Source: Ancylobacter rudongensis (GTDB lineage Bacteria; Pseudomonadota; Alphaproteobacteria; Rhizobiales; Xanthobacteraceae). From it: a DNA stretch of 64,000 nt. The notes beneath the pieces are model-generated. The model worked only from the letters and a program-made list of their open reading frames with translations, did not search any database and was not told the origin of the DNA. Positions 23,034-28,312 of the stretch are shown in pieces. How positions within the stretch are numbered: position 1 is the stretch's first letter; every line of letters starts with the position of its first letter. Position numbers and translations under genes: made by a program. The stretch covers positions 1 through 64,000 of the forward strand of contig NZ_FMTP01000002.1 of assembly GCF_900100155.1 (NCBI RefSeq), read 5' to 3'.

Positions 23034-24338
23034 ATGGCCAATGATCTCGCTCACGCCGCCAAAGAACTCGGCATCAAGTATTTCCTGATCTCCTATGTCG
23101 ACCTGTTCGGTGCGCTGAGGGCCAAGCTGGCCCCGGCCTCCGCCATCTCAGGCATGCAGCGCTCCGGGGCGGGCTTTGCCGGCTTCGCCACCTGGCTCGA
23201 CATGAGCCCGGCCGATGCCGACCTGTTCGCCGTCCCCGACGCCTCCAGCCTGATCCAACTGCCCTGGAAGCCGGACGTCGGCTGGCTCGCTTCCGACCTG
23301 GTGATGAACAACGAGCTGGTGGCGCAGGCGCCGCGCAATGTGCTGAAAGCCACCATGCTGGGCGCCGACAGCCTCGGCTACCAGATGAAGACCGGCGTCG
23401 AGTGCGAGTTCTTCCTCACCAATGCCGACGGCACCAAAATCTCGGATGCCGCCGACAACGCCACCAAGCCCTGCTACGACCAGTCCGCCCTGATGCGCCG
23501 CTACGAGGTGATCAAGGAAATCTGCGACTGCATGCTGACCCTGGGCTGGGGCCCCTACCAGAACGACCATGAGGACGCCAACGGCCAGTTCGAGATGAAC
23601 TGGGACTTCGCCGACGCGCTTGTGACCGCCGACCGGCATGTGTTCTTCAAGTTCATGGCCCGCTCCATCGCCGAGAAGCACGGGCTGCGCGCCACCTTCA
23701 TGCCCAAGCCCTTCATCGACCTCACCGGCTCGGGCTGCCACATGCACACCTCGCTCTGGGGGCCGGACGGCGCCAACCTGTTCGAGGACGAGACGGGCGA
23801 GCTGGGGCTTTCCGCGCTCGGCTACAATTTCATCGGCGGGCTGATCCATTCGGCCGACGCGCTGTGCGCCTTCACCAACCCGACGGTGAATTCCTACAAG
23901 CGCATCAACGCCCCGCGCACCGTCTCCGGCGCCACCTGGGCCCCCAACACAGTGACCTATACCGGCAATAACCGCACCCACATGATCCGCATCCCCGATG
24001 CGGGCCGGCTGGAGCTGCGCCTGCCGGACGGCGCCGCCAACCCCTATCTCGCCCCCGCCGCCATGCTGGCCGCCGGGCTCGACGGCATCCAGAACCAGCG
24101 CGACCCGGGCAAGCGGCTCGACATCAACATGTATACGGACGGCCACAAGGTGAAGGGCGCCAAGAAGCTGCCGCTGAACCTGCTCGATGCCATCCGCGCG
24201 CTGGAGAAGAACACCGTGCTGCGCAGCGCGCTGGGCGCGCCGCTGGTCGAGGGCTACACCAAGCTGAAGCACGAGGAATGGAACGCCTATTCCCGCCACC
24301 TCACCCAGTGGGAGCGCGACAACACGCTGGATATCTGA
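23034..24338 (+). CDS. type III glutamine synthetase-like ligase, probable gamma-glutamylmethylamide synthetase
   Basis: The 434-residue protein belongs to the glutamine synthetase superfamily, in the GlnT/GmaS branch of Hyphomicrobiales and marine methylotrophs. Visible landmarks are the glutamate/metal-site strand VECEFFL, NDHEDANGQFEMNWD, GSGCHMHTSLWG and the RLPDGAANPYL ending. GlnT was named for glutamine synthesis; close relatives (GmaS) join methylamine to glutamate with ATP. With glxBCD upstream and a soxBDAG-like dehydrogenase in the same block, GmaS activity is favoured. I cannot separate the two from sequence by eye, so no symbol is given. Confidence 0.85.
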   Translation: MANDLAHAAKELGIKYFLISYVDLFGALRAKLAPASAISGMQRSGAGFAGFATWLDMSPADADLFAVPDASSLIQLPWKPDVGWLASDLVMNNELVAQAPRNVLKATMLGADSLGYQMKTGVECEFFLTNADGTKISDAADNATKPCYDQSALMRRYEVIKEICDCMLTLGWGPYQNDHEDANGQFEMNWDFADALVTADRHVFFKFMARSIAEKHGLRATFMPKPFIDLTGSGCHMHTSLWGPDGANLFEDETGELGLSALGYNFIGGLIHSADALCAFTNPTVNSYKRINAPRTVSGATWAPNTVTYTGNNRTHMIRIPDAGRLELRLPDGAANPYLAPAAMLAAGLDGIQNQRDPGKRLDINMYTDGHKVKGAKKLPLNLLDAIRALEKNTVLRSALGAPLVEGYTKLKHEEWNAYSRHLTQWERDNTLDI

Positions 24339-24425: not shown

Positions 24426-24498
24426 CTGTGTTTCGGCTTGATGCGCGTCAAGGTTGATGGACGGCAAATCAAGTTACCTCCAGCGAGGAGGACGCTTG
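24426..24498 (+). promoter_or_regulatory. upstream region of peptide gene 1, shared with copy 2
   Basis: Seventy-three bp before the ATG align with the region 24839-24911 before peptide 2, at the same length and roughly 60% identity by eye (GTTTCGGCTTGA at the left, AAGTTACCTCC in the middle). TTGATG at 24438 lies 61 bp before the ATG; TTGACG lies at 61, 57 and 60 bp before copies 2, 3 and 4. A strong GAGGAGGA ribosome site lies 6-13 bp before the start. Confidence 0.65.
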
Positions 24499-24660
24499 AT
24501 GACCCTTTATTCGAGCCAACACCCTACCCTCGTTCCGGACCGGAACAGGCGCGACGCACCGAAGCCCGCGTGGCGCACACCGGTCTGCCGGCTGGTGCCG
24601 CTGCCGGCGTCGACGCAGTTCGATTTGAGTTCCAACGGCGATAGTATGCTCCAGTCCTGA
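24499..24660 (+). CDS. 53-residue peptide 1 of a four-member family (RiPP precursor-like)
   Basis: Small ORF beginning MTLYSSQHPT. It has a conserved centre KPAWRTPVCRLVPLPAST (residues 22-39) and a variable tail of 14 residues, QFDLSSNGDSMLQS. Three further copies (24912, 25940, 26541) share length, centre and a terminal Ser. A constant segment followed by a variable hydrophilic tail is how RiPP precursors look; W-x-x-P recalls the (Y/W)xxP element that RRE domains bind in lasso-type leaders. No modification enzyme except a sulfotransferase-like gene is nearby. Excellent GAGGAGGA ribosome site. Function unknown. Confidence 0.75.
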   Translation: MTLYSSQHPTLVPDRNRRDAPKPAWRTPVCRLVPLPASTQFDLSSNGDSMLQS

Positions 24661-24838
24661 TTCACGACAGGACGACCCGCGCCGCGCGGCCGGGCCGCTC
24701 CGCGCAAGCGGCGTTTCGCGCGGCCGGTCGCCCCTTCTCCATTTCGCCACCTACCCCGTGGGAGCTCGCCAACAGGCGGGAGATCCCAGCGGCGCGATTC
24801 GCCGGCCTCGGCGGGCGGCGATGGCTGCGCCTCACTCG

Positions 24839-24911
24839 CTGCGTTTCGGCTTGACGCCGCGCCAAGGCAATAGAACACTTACGAAATTACCTCTGACGCG
24901 GACCGAGCTTG
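24839..24911 (+). promoter_or_regulatory. upstream region of peptide gene 2, shared with copy 1
   Basis: The same 73-bp layout as copy 1, with GTTTCGGCTTGACG at the left and AAATTACCTCT in the middle. TTGACG at 24851 is a possible -35; I see no convincing shared -10. The conserved non-coding sequence supports these short frames being real genes. Confidence 0.6.
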
Positions 24912-25073
24912 ATGACTCTTTCTGCGACCCAGCGCCCCGCCATCGTCCGGGCCACGGACACGCGCGACACCAACAAGCCTACATGGCGCACGCCGGTCTG
25001 CCGGCTGGTGCCGCTGCCAGCGTCGACGCGCATTGACGGGAGTATCACCGACGATCTTCTCGAGGTGTCCTGA
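24912..25073 (+). CDS. 53-residue peptide 2 (RiPP precursor-like)
   Basis: It begins MTLSATQRPA, has centre KPTWRTPVCRLVPLPAST (residues 22-39) and tail RIDGSITDDLLEVS. The centre is nearly identical to copy 1 at DNA level, while the first 20 residues and the tail diverge, so the centre is under constraint or was recently duplicated. It lies 125 bp upstream of the sulfotransferase-like gene on the same strand and could share its transcript. The ribosome site is weaker than in copy 1. Function unknown. Confidence 0.72.
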   Translation: MTLSATQRPAIVRATDTRDTNKPTWRTPVCRLVPLPASTRIDGSITDDLLEVS

Positions 25074-25198
25074 TTTCTCGGGCCGATGGCGTGCCGGCGA
25101 AAGACTCGGCCGGTGTCATGATCCTTCCGATTACGCCACCGAGACGGTAGGCTGCGCAATTCGAGCAGCGCTTAAGCGCTGGCGCGGGGAGCCTGCGG

Positions 25199-25813
25199 TT
25201 GAAGCATCACGTCCTCATTACCGGCACGGGCCGCGCCGGCACGTCGTTCCTGGTGCAATTGCTCAGCAATCTCGGCCTTGATACCGGCTACACGCCGGGG
25301 GAATTTCCGCTCGACCCGATCGCCCATGCCGGCCTCGAAGCTGACCCGCGCGACCCCGCCGCGCCCTATATCTGCAAGAACCCGTGGATCTGCGACACGG
25401 TCGAGGAGGTGCTGACCGACAGCTCGCTCCACATCGACCATGTGTTCATCCCGGTGCGGAACATCGAGGCCGCCGCCGCCAGCCGCGTTCATGTGCAGAA
25501 GGCCAATACCGGCAGCGAGGACATGCTCCAGCCCGTCGCCGGCGGGCTGTGGCATGTGGAGAAGGGCGCCGACCAGGCCGCGCTGCTGCGCCGCCAGTTC
25601 ACCCGGCTGGTCGAACAGCTGGTGCGGTTCGACATCGGCATGACCTTCATCTGGTACCCGCGACTGACCGAAGATCCCGATTATCTCCGCGCCAAGCTCG
25701 CCGAGGGGCTGGACATGCCGGACCCGGCGATCTTCCGCGAGGTGTTCGCGCGCACCGTGCGCCCGGAATGGGTGCATCGGTTCGGCGCCGAGGACAGCAC
25801 CGGCGCCCGCTGA
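25199..25813 (+). CDS. sulfotransferase-like P-loop protein
   Basis: The 204-residue protein starts with MKHHVLITGTGRAGTSFLVQ, where GTGRAGTSF fits the 5'-phosphosulfate (PAPS) binding loop of sulfotransferases. PVRNIEAAAASRVH may be the 3'-phosphate region. It is short for the family (usually 250-300 residues). The start is TTG at 25199 with GGGGA 8 bp upstream; no good ATG exists. It lies between peptide genes 2 and 3, so its substrate may be one of these peptides, though they have few Tyr residues (one in copy 1, none in the others). A small-molecule target is equally possible. Confidence 0.7.
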   Translation: MKHHVLITGTGRAGTSFLVQLLSNLGLDTGYTPGEFPLDPIAHAGLEADPRDPAAPYICKNPWICDTVEEVLTDSSLHIDHVFIPVRNIEAAAASRVHVQKANTGSEDMLQPVAGGLWHVEKGADQAALLRRQFTRLVEQLVRFDIGMTFIWYPRLTEDPDYLRAKLAEGLDMPDPAIFREVFARTVRPEWVHRFGAEDSTGAR

Positions 25814-25939
25814 CGGCATGGCGCCGGCGCCGCGTTCACTCCCTGACCGCGATCACCACCACGGCGCGCTACTGGTATCATATTGACGCCGGGTCGCTGC
25901 CGGCAGATAAAATCCGGGTCACATCCACCGGACAGCCCA

Positions 25940-26101
25940 ATGACGACATCTCCGCCATCGCCCGCTACTGCGGGCACCGACCGGAACAGCCGCGACACGA
26001 AAAAACCCGCCTGGCGCATGCCGGTCTGCCGGCCGGTGCCGCTGCCGGCATCGACGCAGGTTTCCGTGGTCGGCAACGATGATTCTATTACGAGTTCCTG
26101 A
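25940..26101 (+). CDS. 53-residue peptide 3 (RiPP precursor-like)
   Basis: It begins MTTSPPSPAT, has centre KPAWRMPVCRPVPLPAST (residues 22-39) and tail QVSVVGNDDSITSS. It shares length, centre, terminal Ser and an upstream TTGACG (25883) with the other copies; here TTGACG is followed after 17 bp by GATAAA, a plausible -10. It lies downstream of the sulfotransferase-like gene. I chose the ATG at 25940 because it gives exactly 53 residues like its paralogues; an upstream TTG at 25883 is unlikely. Confidence 0.7.
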   Translation: MTTSPPSPATAGTDRNSRDTKKPAWRMPVCRPVPLPASTQVSVVGNDDSITSS

Positions 26102-26540
26102 TCGCTCCCGCCGATAGGAGCCAGGCGGAGCTGCGTGCTTCGGGGCCGCTATAGGCGCCACCTCGGCATGACAAGGTTTATTCCATCGCCCGCGACCACC
26201 GTCCTCCCCGGGCGAGGGAAGCGGATCGACGTCTTGCGCCTTCCCGACGTCGTGGAGGGCCGGGCCAGGCCCGGCCATGACGGTGCGCCCGATCCCGCGC
26301 CGAACGCCCTTCACTCCCGCACCGCGAACGGCACCACGTCGCGACGGTCAGGGTCCAGTGCGATCGAGCCGTCGAGCGTGCCGTGATTCAGCCTCCCCCG
26401 CCGGAACGGAGACCGCACAAGAAACCTGAGCAATGCCGATTCGCGGGCCTGCCGATGAAAGGCGATCATCCAAACACCTCTTGACGCGCGCGCCCGAACG
26501 ATGGACGGCTATCCATTATCCCCGGTGTGGAGCGACTTTG
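26102..26540. other. 439-bp stretch between peptide genes 3 and 4
   Basis: No complete gene is seen. It contains a GCCGGGCCAGGCCCGGC palindrome (about 26255-26282), a copy of the pccR 3' end (26311-26358) and the upstream region of peptide gene 4, with TTGACG at 26481 and GATGGACGGC shared with the region before peptide 1. Confidence 0.6.
26311..26370 (-). pseudogene. fragment of pccR 3' end
   Basis: On the minus strand this encodes ALDPDRRDVVPFAVRE followed by a stop, nearly the same as the C-terminus of the intact regulator ending at 26787. At DNA level the first 33 bp (from TCACTCCCGC) are identical in both copies, and about 48 bp are closely similar. It is a decayed partial copy: upstream codons do not continue the regulator. 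The two copies bracket peptide gene 4. Confidence 0.8.
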
Positions 26541-26702
26541 ATGACCCATGTCCTGAAGCCGCATCCCGCCCTCCCGAGCCAGGATACGGGCGGCACGACA
26601 AAGCCCGCGTGGCGCGGGCCGATGATCCGCCCCGTGTCCCTGCCGCTGGCGACACGGGGGGATGCCGGCCCCCTCAGCGACGGCATAACCGTGACGTCCT
26701 GA
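26541..26702 (+). CDS. 53-residue peptide 4, divergent member of the family
   Basis: It begins MTHVLKPHPA, has centre KPAWRGPMIRPVSLPLAT (residues 21-38) and tail RGDAGPLSDGITVTS. It is again 53 residues and ends in Ser, but the Cys of the other copies is Ile and the tail is one residue longer. So Cys is not essential to the family, while K-P-(A/T)-W-R-x-P and the PLP-like stretch are. TGGAG lies about 10 bp before the ATG and TTGACG 60 bp before it. It lies between the two copies of the pccR 3' end. Confidence 0.65.
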   Translation: MTHVLKPHPALPSQDTGGTTKPAWRGPMIRPVSLPLATRGDAGPLSDGITVTS

Positions 26703-26786: not shown

Positions 26787-28235
26787 TCACTCCCGCACCG
26801 CGAACGGCACCACGTCGCGGCGGTCAGGATCGAGCAGGATTTCGCGGTCGAGCGGGGGGAAGGCGCGTTCCGGGCAGGCGGTGCGCGGGCAGATGCGGCA
26901 GTTGACCCCGAGCGGCGCCACGGCGGCCGCCTTCAGGTCCAGCCCGTCGGCATGGACCAGCTCGCCGGCATAGGAAATCTCGCAGCCAATGCCGAGCGCG
27001 AAGCGGCGCTCGCGCGCGCCGTGGCGCAGCGCCGGCTTTGACGTGCCGCGCGCCAGGCAGAGATAGCGCGCCCCGTCCGGCATCTCGCCGAGTTGCACCA
27101 GCGTGCGGGCCGGCTGCTCGAACGCCTCGTGCACGTTCCACACCGGGCAGGCGCCGCCATAGCGGGCGAACTGGAAGCGGGTGGCGCTGTGGCGCTTGAT
27201 GACGTTGCCGGCGCGGTCGACTTTCAGGAAATAGAACGGCACCCCCTTCTCGCCCGGCCGCTGCAGGGTGGACAGGCGGTGGCAGACCTGTTCCAGGCTC
27301 GCCCCGGTCATGGCGGCCAGCCGGTCGAGATCGTGCCGCGTTTCGCGCGCCAGCCGGGCGAAGCGGCGATAGGGCAGCAGCAGCGCGCCGGCATAATAGT
27401 TCTGCAGCGACAGCCGGCAGACCTCGCGCGCCGTGGTGCTGCGCAGGCCCGCCTCCAGCACATGGTGGTCGATCAGCTCGCTCTGCTCGAAGCGGGCGAG
27501 GAGCGCGGCGAGGCGGAAGGCGCGGCTGGCGGGATCGAGCGTGCGCGCCAGTGTCGCCACCCGGCGGTGGCGGTCATAGGCCAGCAGCGGCGCGTCGAGC
27601 TGGGCGGAAGCCGTCATCTCCACCGCGATGGCGTGGCTCTGGCGCAGATGTTCCACCAGCACCGCCACCGCGTCGTCGCGGCCGAACAGGTCGAGCGCGG
27701 CGTTGCGTTCCTCGCCGGCCCGGTCGAGGCCGTCGACGTAATTGTCGATGTAGTGGAAATGGTCGCGCACCTCCTCATAGGGCGCGAGGTTGCGCGCCTC
27801 GTCGGGCGGCGCGGCGCCGTCCACCTCGCGCGCCACCGACACCACCGCGTCGTCCTGGGCGGCGCGCCGCTCCTCCAGCCGGCGCAGCGCCCCGTGCAGG
27901 CGCAGGAAGGCATGGGCGAAGGCGGGGGCGTGGGTGGTGGCGTTCTTCAAATCCTGCAGGCTGGGCTCGATACCGCGAAACACCGGATCGGCCAGCGCCT
28001 CGCGCAGATCGGCGACGATGCGGTCGAGATCGTCGGCGCCGAAGCGGGTGATGTCGAGATCGAAGACGCGACTGATGGCGAGCAGCACGGCGGCGGTGAC
28101 CGGGCGCTGGTTGCTCTCGATCTGGTTGATGTAGCTCGGGGAGAGCGCCAGCCGCCGGGCGAAATCCATCTGGGTCAGCCCCAGCCGCTCGCGCACATGG
28201 CGCACCGCATGGCCGGCGAAGACTTTCTTGGACAT
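26787..28235 (-). CDS. pccR: short-chain acyl-CoA responsive regulator (PccR/ScfR family)
   Basis: The 482-residue protein has an N-terminal XRE helix-turn-helix (HVRERLGLTQMDFARRLALS, PSYINQIESNQRPV), an IrrE/ImmA-peptidase-like middle region and a C-terminal Cys cluster (GVNCRICPRTACPERAFPP). This is the family of PccR of Rhodobacter and RamB of actinobacteria, which regulate propionyl-CoA or acetate genes. I chose the ATG at 28235 (MSKKVFAGHAVRHVRERL). It is divergent from pccB with an operator-like palindrome between them. The Cys residues may bind metal or a thioester ligand. Confidence 0.88.
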   Translation of the reverse strand: MSKKVFAGHAVRHVRERLGLTQMDFARRLALSPSYINQIESNQRPVTAAVLLAISRVFDLDITRFGADDLDRIVADLREALADPVFRGIEPSLQDLKNATTHAPAFAHAFLRLHGALRRLEERRAAQDDAVVSVAREVDGAAPPDEARNLAPYEEVRDHFHYIDNYVDGLDRAGEERNAALDLFGRDDAVAVLVEHLRQSHAIAVEMTASAQLDAPLLAYDRHRRVATLARTLDPASRAFRLAALLARFEQSELIDHHVLEAGLRSTTAREVCRLSLQNYYAGALLLPYRRFARLARETRHDLDRLAAMTGASLEQVCHRLSTLQRPGEKGVPFYFLKVDRAGNVIKRHSATRFQFARYGGACPVWNVHEAFEQPARTLVQLGEMPDGARYLCLARGTSKPALRHGARERRFALGIGCEISYAGELVHADGLDLKAAAVAPLGVNCRICPRTACPERAFPPLDREILLDPDRRDVVPFAVRE

Positions 28236-28271
28236 GATCGCGTCTTCCTTGCCGCCCGCTTGCGAGAACCA

Positions 28272-28312
28272 CCCTTCGAGGCCCGGCGTGCCGCCAAGCA
28301 CCTCAGGATGAC
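28272..28312. repeat. dispersed repeat, half copy of the CCTCAGGATGAC type
   Basis: CCTTCGAGGCCCGGCG...CACCTCAGGATGAC matches one arm of the elements at 9408 and 30033. It lies just upstream of pccR. Confidence 0.65.

Follow-up and report, generated by a model that had tools for sequence, protein, structure and literature searches.

Four 53-residue peptide genes in Ancylobacter rudongensis that probably encode lasso-type precursors located away from their enzymes

The peptide genes and their interval

The first 64,000 nucleotides of contig NZ_FMTP01000002.1 of the alphaproteobacterium Ancylobacter rudongensis (assembly GCF_900100155.1), referred to here as the window, contain four short open reading frames (ORFs), W1 to W4, which were noticed in a preliminary description of the sequence and were confirmed at 24499, 24912, 25940, and 26541. 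Each encodes 53 residues, starts with Met-Thr, and ends with Ser. The four share a central segment and align without gaps apart from one residue in W4; the centre of W1–W3 matches KP(A/T)WR(T/M)PVCR(L/P)VPLPAST, and that of W4 is more diverged (KPAWRGPMIRPVSLPLAT). From the sequence comparisons described below, the four genes very probably encode lasso-type precursors (A peptides) of the ribosomally synthesized and post-translationally modified peptide (RiPP) kind, detached from their enzymes. A possible new RiPP family had been envisaged in the preliminary description; the RiPP precursor kind is retained here, but a new class is not, the peptides fitting known lasso precursors.

The array is bordered by two genes that we take, from their sequences, to be a glutamine synthetase gene of the glnT type on the left and a regulator gene of the XRE/peptidase M78 type on the right (Table 1). 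Fragments like the 3′ end of the adjacent M78 gene are repeated between the peptide genes, at 25835, 26310, and 26786 (spacings of 475 and 476), which suggests that the array grew partly by local duplication. Scans of the peptides against Pfam and NCBIfam gave nothing usable, the DUF5539 match to W3 (E 0.054) lying under the cut-off.

Relatives in other genomes and selection on the peptides

Thirty genomes of the genus were searched with W1 at a threshold of E ≤ 0.01 (genomes, contigs, and examined stretches are denoted here by G, C, and L numbers). Matches were obtained in three of them, namely the A. rudongensis genome itself, the congener G029, and, as a weak row, G014; the last (E 0.0019) lies inside a 405-residue frame and was not counted as a copy. 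G029 contains three further ORFs of exactly 53 residues, each of the MT...Ser form and with the same flanking genes as in the window (that is, syntenic), the counterpart of W1 showing 89% identity. By their sequence conservation, the four ORFs and the G029 copies are a real gene family, beyond chance. Profile A3, made from these seven window-type copies, gave one further strong match among 391 genomes of the family, G124:C143 (E 8.2e-9), which belongs to a different genus and is also located directly after glnT. Homologous short ORFs with a preserved frame, which the earlier work had proposed to seek, were thus found as three 53-residue copies in G029 and one relative in G124. A3 matches at E ≤ 0.05 were found in 91 of the 391 genomes, mostly at chance level; in the profile searches for precursors, 17 (A3) or 19 candidates were scored per genome, and a missing row is weak evidence of absence. 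Among ten stretches examined around chosen matches, L058 and L059 were found on inspection not to be precursors. No other close copy was found in the A. rudongensis genome outside the window, and a more distant relative is present. Several weak A3 matches with the same end pattern adjoin asparagine-synthetase-like cyclases (G104:C1, G027:C1, and contig C2 of A. rudongensis), and one row of the single-sequence search fell in a gene set on contig C7 of A. rudongensis.

The ratio of nonsynonymous to synonymous substitution rates (dN/dS), proposed earlier as a check across the copies, was compared between residues 22–40, the end of the predicted leader, and residues 41–53, the predicted core, for nine pairs among W1–W3 and the three G029 copies, W4 being left out because of its alignment gap. 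The core value was higher in all eight pairs for which both were defined, ranging from 1.49 versus 0.21 (W1/W2) and 7.1 versus 0.68 (W3 and the third G029 copy) to the smallest gap, 0.59 versus 0.58 (W1 and the first G029 copy), although values from a core of 13 codons are rough; W1 compared with its nearest G029 counterpart gave a whole-gene value of 0.55. The leader end is more constrained and the core evolves faster. A constant segment followed by a variable hydrophilic tail had been described previously, and the constant segment holds as the leader end; the tail does not vary freely, since Asp48 (residue 47 in W4) and Ser53 are invariant in all seven copies (four in the window and three in G029).

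The sequence TTGACG lies 57–61 bp 5′ of the ATG in six of the seven copies, with TTGATG in the seventh, W1, compatible with a putative −35 element. Its earlier report before all four ATGs thus holds in the window and extends to the three G029 copies, but not further: TTGA(C/T)G was not seen at this spacing before 12 more distant precursors examined.

Separately from the window-type copies, an orphan precursor of approximately 41 residues was observed at C7:522436-522540 of the A. rudongensis genome (L054) and in G029:C15 (L055) and G124:C233 (L053). In the first two cases it lies 3′ of a ribosomal protein S4 gene, presumably rpsD. Its core, (Q/A)FNGG(A/E)GD..TGS, is kept in both genera represented, whereas the window cores diversify. 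Six more precursors of the lasso type were seen in G104:C55 (L195), G029:C10 (L196), G079:C1 and C3 (L198, L201, L199), and G124:C96 (L194), five of them away from any cyclase match and several with cores of 14–17 residues.

Predicted precursor anatomy

A second profile, A6, was made from 11 precursors adjoining lasso-type cyclases and has no member in common with A3. When the two were aligned with hhalign, the match covered 38 columns at 95.9% (E 5.3e-9) and brought W, P, T, D, and S into register; the best of 200 column-shuffled versions of A6 reached 11.9%, and reversed A6 0.2%. The match of A3 to A7, a profile of seven precursors of the type found in the C7 set, was weaker (73.9%; best of 200 shuffles 3.7%).

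The [Y/W]xxP motif is present in all four window copies as W25xxP28 (W24xxP27 in W4). Because its register is the same in precursors that lie beside genes for PqqD-type RiPP recognition element (RRE) proteins and lasso-type cyclases, W25xxP28 is supported as a predicted RRE-type leader motif, as had been proposed at the outset. Thr39 (Thr38 in W4) occupies the predicted penultimate leader position in all seven window-type copies; if Thr39 is placed at leader position −2, residue 41 becomes the first of the core and Asp48 its eighth, so that all seven copies have Asp at core position 8 and a C-terminal Ser. Excerpts from the literature describe lasso precursors as having Thr(−2) and a YxxP leader motif (PMC10368454), leaders of 20–40 residues and cores of 13–33 residues (PMC13352647), and a C-terminal Ser that is phosphorylated by lasso kinases, both paeninodin-type and the proteobacterial SyanK (PMC9266682). 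The window peptides are best read as having the leader layout W(−16)xxP(−13)...T(−2), followed by a core of 13–14 residues with Asp8 as the predicted ring acceptor and a C-terminal Ser.

The same layout recurs in a table of 30 precursors of the W(−16) type, 13 of which lie beside a cyclase match (12 labelled as such and G079:C1:57289, about 0.4 kb from a cyclase) and 17 of which do not. Thr(−2) was found in 29 of the 30 (one row, G124:C96, fitting only if W is placed at −15), Asp or Glu at core position 8 in 29, and a final Ser in 30, a set of counts biased by the finding of some rows with patterns demanding a final S, T, or A and by the membership of 17 rows in profile A4, which found others. 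Each of the core positions 1–13 other than 8 is acidic in at most 8 of the 30, and 19 of them have a core of 13 residues. The table leaves out an ORF beside the G027 cyclase (L083 9112-9348) and the C7-class precursors of the W(−15) type.

Candidate maturation enzymes elsewhere in the genome

The A. rudongensis genome contains three RRE/kinase/cyclase sets (on C2, on C7, and at C8:453k) and one lone B2 peptidase gene on C9 (Table 1), with no B1 or cyclase gene found in 16 kb around the latter; a fourth PqqD is present on C15. The C2 PqqD matches NF033536 (1.3e-19, 70 of 80 bits), and the best NCBIfam match of the C2 cyclase is the lasso cyclase family NF033535 (3.1e-93, 313 bits; cut-off 525). 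The kinase and cyclase frames of this set are full length. The HPrK-like kinase P0015, whose gene does not adjoin the window array, shows the motif PLHAS...GHSGAGKS...TDD, the motif given for HPrK-like lasso kinases in the excerpted source being H...GxxGxGKS...DD (PMC10368454). Assignment to the HPr-rel-A system (TIGR04352/TIGR04353) is not supported, with the C2 kinase at 50.4 of 200 bits and the PqqD at 18.8 of 35 bits, both under the cut-offs.

Comparison of neighbours, another check that had been suggested, showed that distant relatives of the window peptides adjoin genes for PqqD-type proteins, HPrK-like kinases, and asparagine-synthetase-like cyclases, with a B2 peptidase also present in the G104, G035, and G008 clusters. 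Across the genus, the 9 of 30 genomes with strong B2 matches (E<1e-18) are also those with cyclase matches to P0006 at E<1e-100 (Fisher 7e-8, ignoring kinship). At E<1e-12, 4 of the 30 match both a C2-type cyclase and a W(−16) precursor, a coincidence that is partly trivial because some of the precursors adjoin the cyclase. Of five genomes in G124's genus, four have a cyclase match and the same four have precursor matches, the fifth genome being 72% complete.

The predicted leader register favours the C2 or C8 set over the C7 set as partner. Read with 13-residue cores, the C7 precursors place W at −15 and lack Thr(−2), and for these reasons, together with the weaker profile match (73.9% versus 95.9%), the C7-type machinery was judged less likely to be cognate.

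Table 1. Features of the window and candidate lasso-type gene sets elsewhere in the A. rudongensis genome
Feature	Position	Strand	Remark
Precursor gene W1, 53 aa	24499..24660	+	leader 1–40; predicted core FDLSSNGDSMLQS, codons 24619–24657
Precursor gene W2, 53 aa	24912..25073	+	predicted core IDGSITDDLLEVS, 25032–25070
Precursor gene W3, 53 aa	25940..26101	+	predicted core VSVVGNDDSITSS, 26060–26098
Precursor gene W4, 53 aa	26541..26702	+	predicted core GDAGPLSDGITVTS, 14 aa, 26658–26699
TTGATG, −35-like, before W1	24438..24443	+	sequence position
TTGACG, −35-like, before W2	24851..24856	+	sequence position
TTGACG, −35-like, before W3	25883..25888	+	sequence position
TTGACG, −35-like, before W4	26481..26486	+	sequence position
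Sulfotransferase-like gene P0005	25199..25813	+	judged outside the peptide system
glnT-type glutamine synthetase gene (presumed name)	23034..24338	+	left border of the array (context)
XRE/peptidase M78-type regulator gene (presumed name)	26787..28301	-	right border of the array (context)
C2 set	contig C2		PqqD, HPrK-like kinase, four precursors, cyclase
C7 set	contig C7		PqqD, kinase, sulfotransferase, cyclase, precursor, three tail-collar proteins
C8:453k set	C8, ~453–457 kb, same contig as the window		PqqD, kinase, sulfotransferase, more distant cyclase, W(−16) precursor
Lone B2 peptidase gene	C9:83718-84050 (L078 7662-8162)		NF033537 5.2e-26, above cut-off

Proposed maturation in trans

It seems that the peptide genes have dispersed from their likely maturation machinery. 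Since the window yielded no lasso enzyme by tblastn and enzyme sets are present elsewhere in the genome, maturation would occur in trans. Each 53-mer would be translated, and its C-terminal Ser phosphorylated by an HPrK-like kinase. Within the 40-residue leader, W(−16)xxP(−13) would be bound by the PqqD-type RRE protein (B1), and the B2 peptidase would cut after residue 40, one residue past Thr39. The asparagine-synthetase-like cyclase (C) would then link the freed N-terminus at residue 41 with the Asp48 side chain; the product would be a macrolactam of 8 residues carrying a tail of 5–6 residues that ends in (phospho)Ser. The lone B2 on C9, together with either the C2 or the C8:453k set, provides the best candidates for these enzymes. 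A more extended proposal is plausible and is advanced only tentatively: a dispersed lasso system in which 11 or more precursors at five loci (the window and C2 with four each, and one each in the C7 set, in the C8 set, and after the presumed rpsD on C7) would depend on three B1/kinase/cyclase sets and a single shared, stand-alone B2, and which would produce minimal, mostly 13-residue, phosphorylated macrolactams whose cores diversify while the leaders stay fixed.

Several observations weigh against lasso-type maturation of the window peptides. When ten query proteins were compared with the 64-kb window by tblastn (E 1e-4), the sulfotransferase-like gene itself was the only match. The C2 and C7 cyclases are under the NF033535 cut-off (313 and 233 of 525 bits), and the C2 and C7 PqqD proteins are under that of NF033536, though above the Pfam PqqD cut-off. 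The coincidence of B2 and cyclase is suggestive only, because it amounts to two independent changes on the glnT tree (sign test p 0.5, not significant); furthermore, a B2 match above the family cut-off occurs in 13 of the 30 genus genomes, four of which have only a weaker B2 and no such cyclase. Only a kinase remnant adjoins the C2-type cyclase of G029:C2 (L126), and the C2-type set of G014 (L128) has a kinase remnant and a cyclase match in two pieces; both sets, as judged from these frames, show signs of decay.

Among the precursors themselves, the L083 ORF beside the G027 cyclase has W..P and T and is without Asp8 and the final Ser, and a pattern search found no precursor beside the cyclases of G029:C17, G124:C150, G124:C122, and G027:3.75M. 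The G124 relative and the C2 precursors are without TTGA(C/T)G at the spacing found in the window. Residue 1 of lasso cores is usually Gly, and also Ala, Ser, or Cys, with exceptions; in the window it is Phe, Ile, and Val in W1–W3, and Gly only in W4. Finally, the tail is short, and the window leaders of 40 residues and cores of 13 residues are the extremes of the quoted ranges, 13 being the lower bound for lasso cores (excerpts of PMC13352647).

Alternative explanations

The sulfotransferase-like protein encoded at 25199 (P0005) had been put forward as the only possible modifying enzyme, and its position between W2 and W3, together with the presence of a sulfotransferase in the C7 and C8 lasso-type sets, would suit a new RiPP or peptide signal matured by it. 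The sulfotransferase of those sets belongs to PF00685 and is a different one. In G007, G011, and G020, a P0005-type gene is flanked by glnT and the XRE/M78 gene and the peptides were not found, whereas G029 carries three peptides and gave no P0005 match at E 0.001; given this double dissociation, P0005 is rejected as the partner enzyme. Relatives of 42–44% occur away from glnT in G016, G023, and G026, the best Pfam match (Sulfotransfer_3, E 0.13) is under the cut-off, and no relative was found in the PDB at E 0.1 or in a scan of genome contigs. Maturation by P0005 is thus very improbable, and P0005 is best seen, from its distribution, as an independent resident of the glnT–M78 interval. Equally improbable is the suggestion that the peptides are unmodified small proteins or regulators outside the RiPPs, with a chance likeness to lasso leaders; its sole support is the absence of local enzymes, and it is at odds with the profile match to enzyme-linked precursors, for which shuffled controls scored far lower, and with the five key positions in the same register.

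The peptide genes may instead be relicts, that is, genuine lasso-type genes left after loss or duplication of a cluster and no longer expressed or matured. The lack of enzymes found nearby, the M78 3′-end repeats suggestive of duplication, the kinase remnants in G029 and G014, and the split cyclase in G014 would all fit, and the peptides were not found after glnT in 28 of the 30 genus genomes (pattern scan, ~1.5 kb flank). Yet all seven copies keep the 53-codon frame, TTGA(C/T)G, Asp at core position 8, and the final Ser despite divergence of the core, and the C2 set retains its full-length kinase and cyclase frames, which makes decay improbable. Production by the lasso enzymes of an unthreaded branched-cyclic macrolactam, or of a peptide that is only cleaved or phosphorylated and stays linear, is less remote, although still on the unlikely side; it overlaps with the favoured assignment to lasso-type precursors, which needs no threading. 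With 5–6 residues past the ring and no obvious bulky plug in several copies, threading is not an evident outcome, but cores of 13 residues are quoted as inside the lasso range (excerpts of PMC13352647).

Relation to known systems

Lasso peptides, split B1/B2 proteins, and HPrK-type kinases are already known. The closest likeness is to phosphorylated lasso peptides of the paeninodin/SyanA type, whose clusters comprise A, B1, B2, and C genes and an HPrK-like kinase gene: the [Y/W]xxP motif, Thr(−2), acidic core residue 8, and C-terminal Ser are the same, and the same kinds of gene (PqqD-type B1, B2, cyclase, and HPrK-like kinase) occur in the A. rudongensis genome. In contrast to that type, the window precursors are located away from the enzymes, the core is just 13–14 residues, core residue 1 is often not Gly, W is at −16 rather than Y at −17, and a lone B2 is found beside three B1/C sets. 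The cebulassopins, known here by the title of a 2026 article cited in PMC13352647, are split-operon lasso peptides, and likewise, by that title, their genes are not all in a single operon; in A. rudongensis the precursor arrays, the B2 gene, and the B1/kinase/C sets are on separate loci.

Prochlorosin-type RiPPs combine many dispersed precursors with one enzyme and lanthipeptide chemistry. As in A. rudongensis, the leader is conserved, the cores are diversified, and the precursors are dispersed in the genome; the chemistry differs, and one enzyme for all copies is not evidenced here. If correct, the dispersed system would be a lasso counterpart of this arrangement. In the open-licence literature, no description was found of a lasso-type precursor array without local enzymes, or of a genome that pairs a single B2 with 11 or more precursors spread over five loci. 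Mining for lasso peptides commonly anchors on the enzymes and then seeks an adjoining precursor. Orphan precursors like W1–W4 would escape such mining, and therefore alphaproteobacterial lasso diversity may be undercounted. In addition, cores at the quoted lower size limit combined with an invariant kinase-type Ser would make the minimal lasso size and maturation in trans directly testable with a single small set of genes.

Tail-collar proteins at cyclase loci

A further feature of the lasso-type cyclase loci was observed in their neighbours. At 14 of the 21 loci compared there are relatives of P0013, a protein with a phage tail-collar domain (PF07484), generally in runs of three; they were found at L077, L127, L129, L130-L136, L088, L052, L197, and L200.

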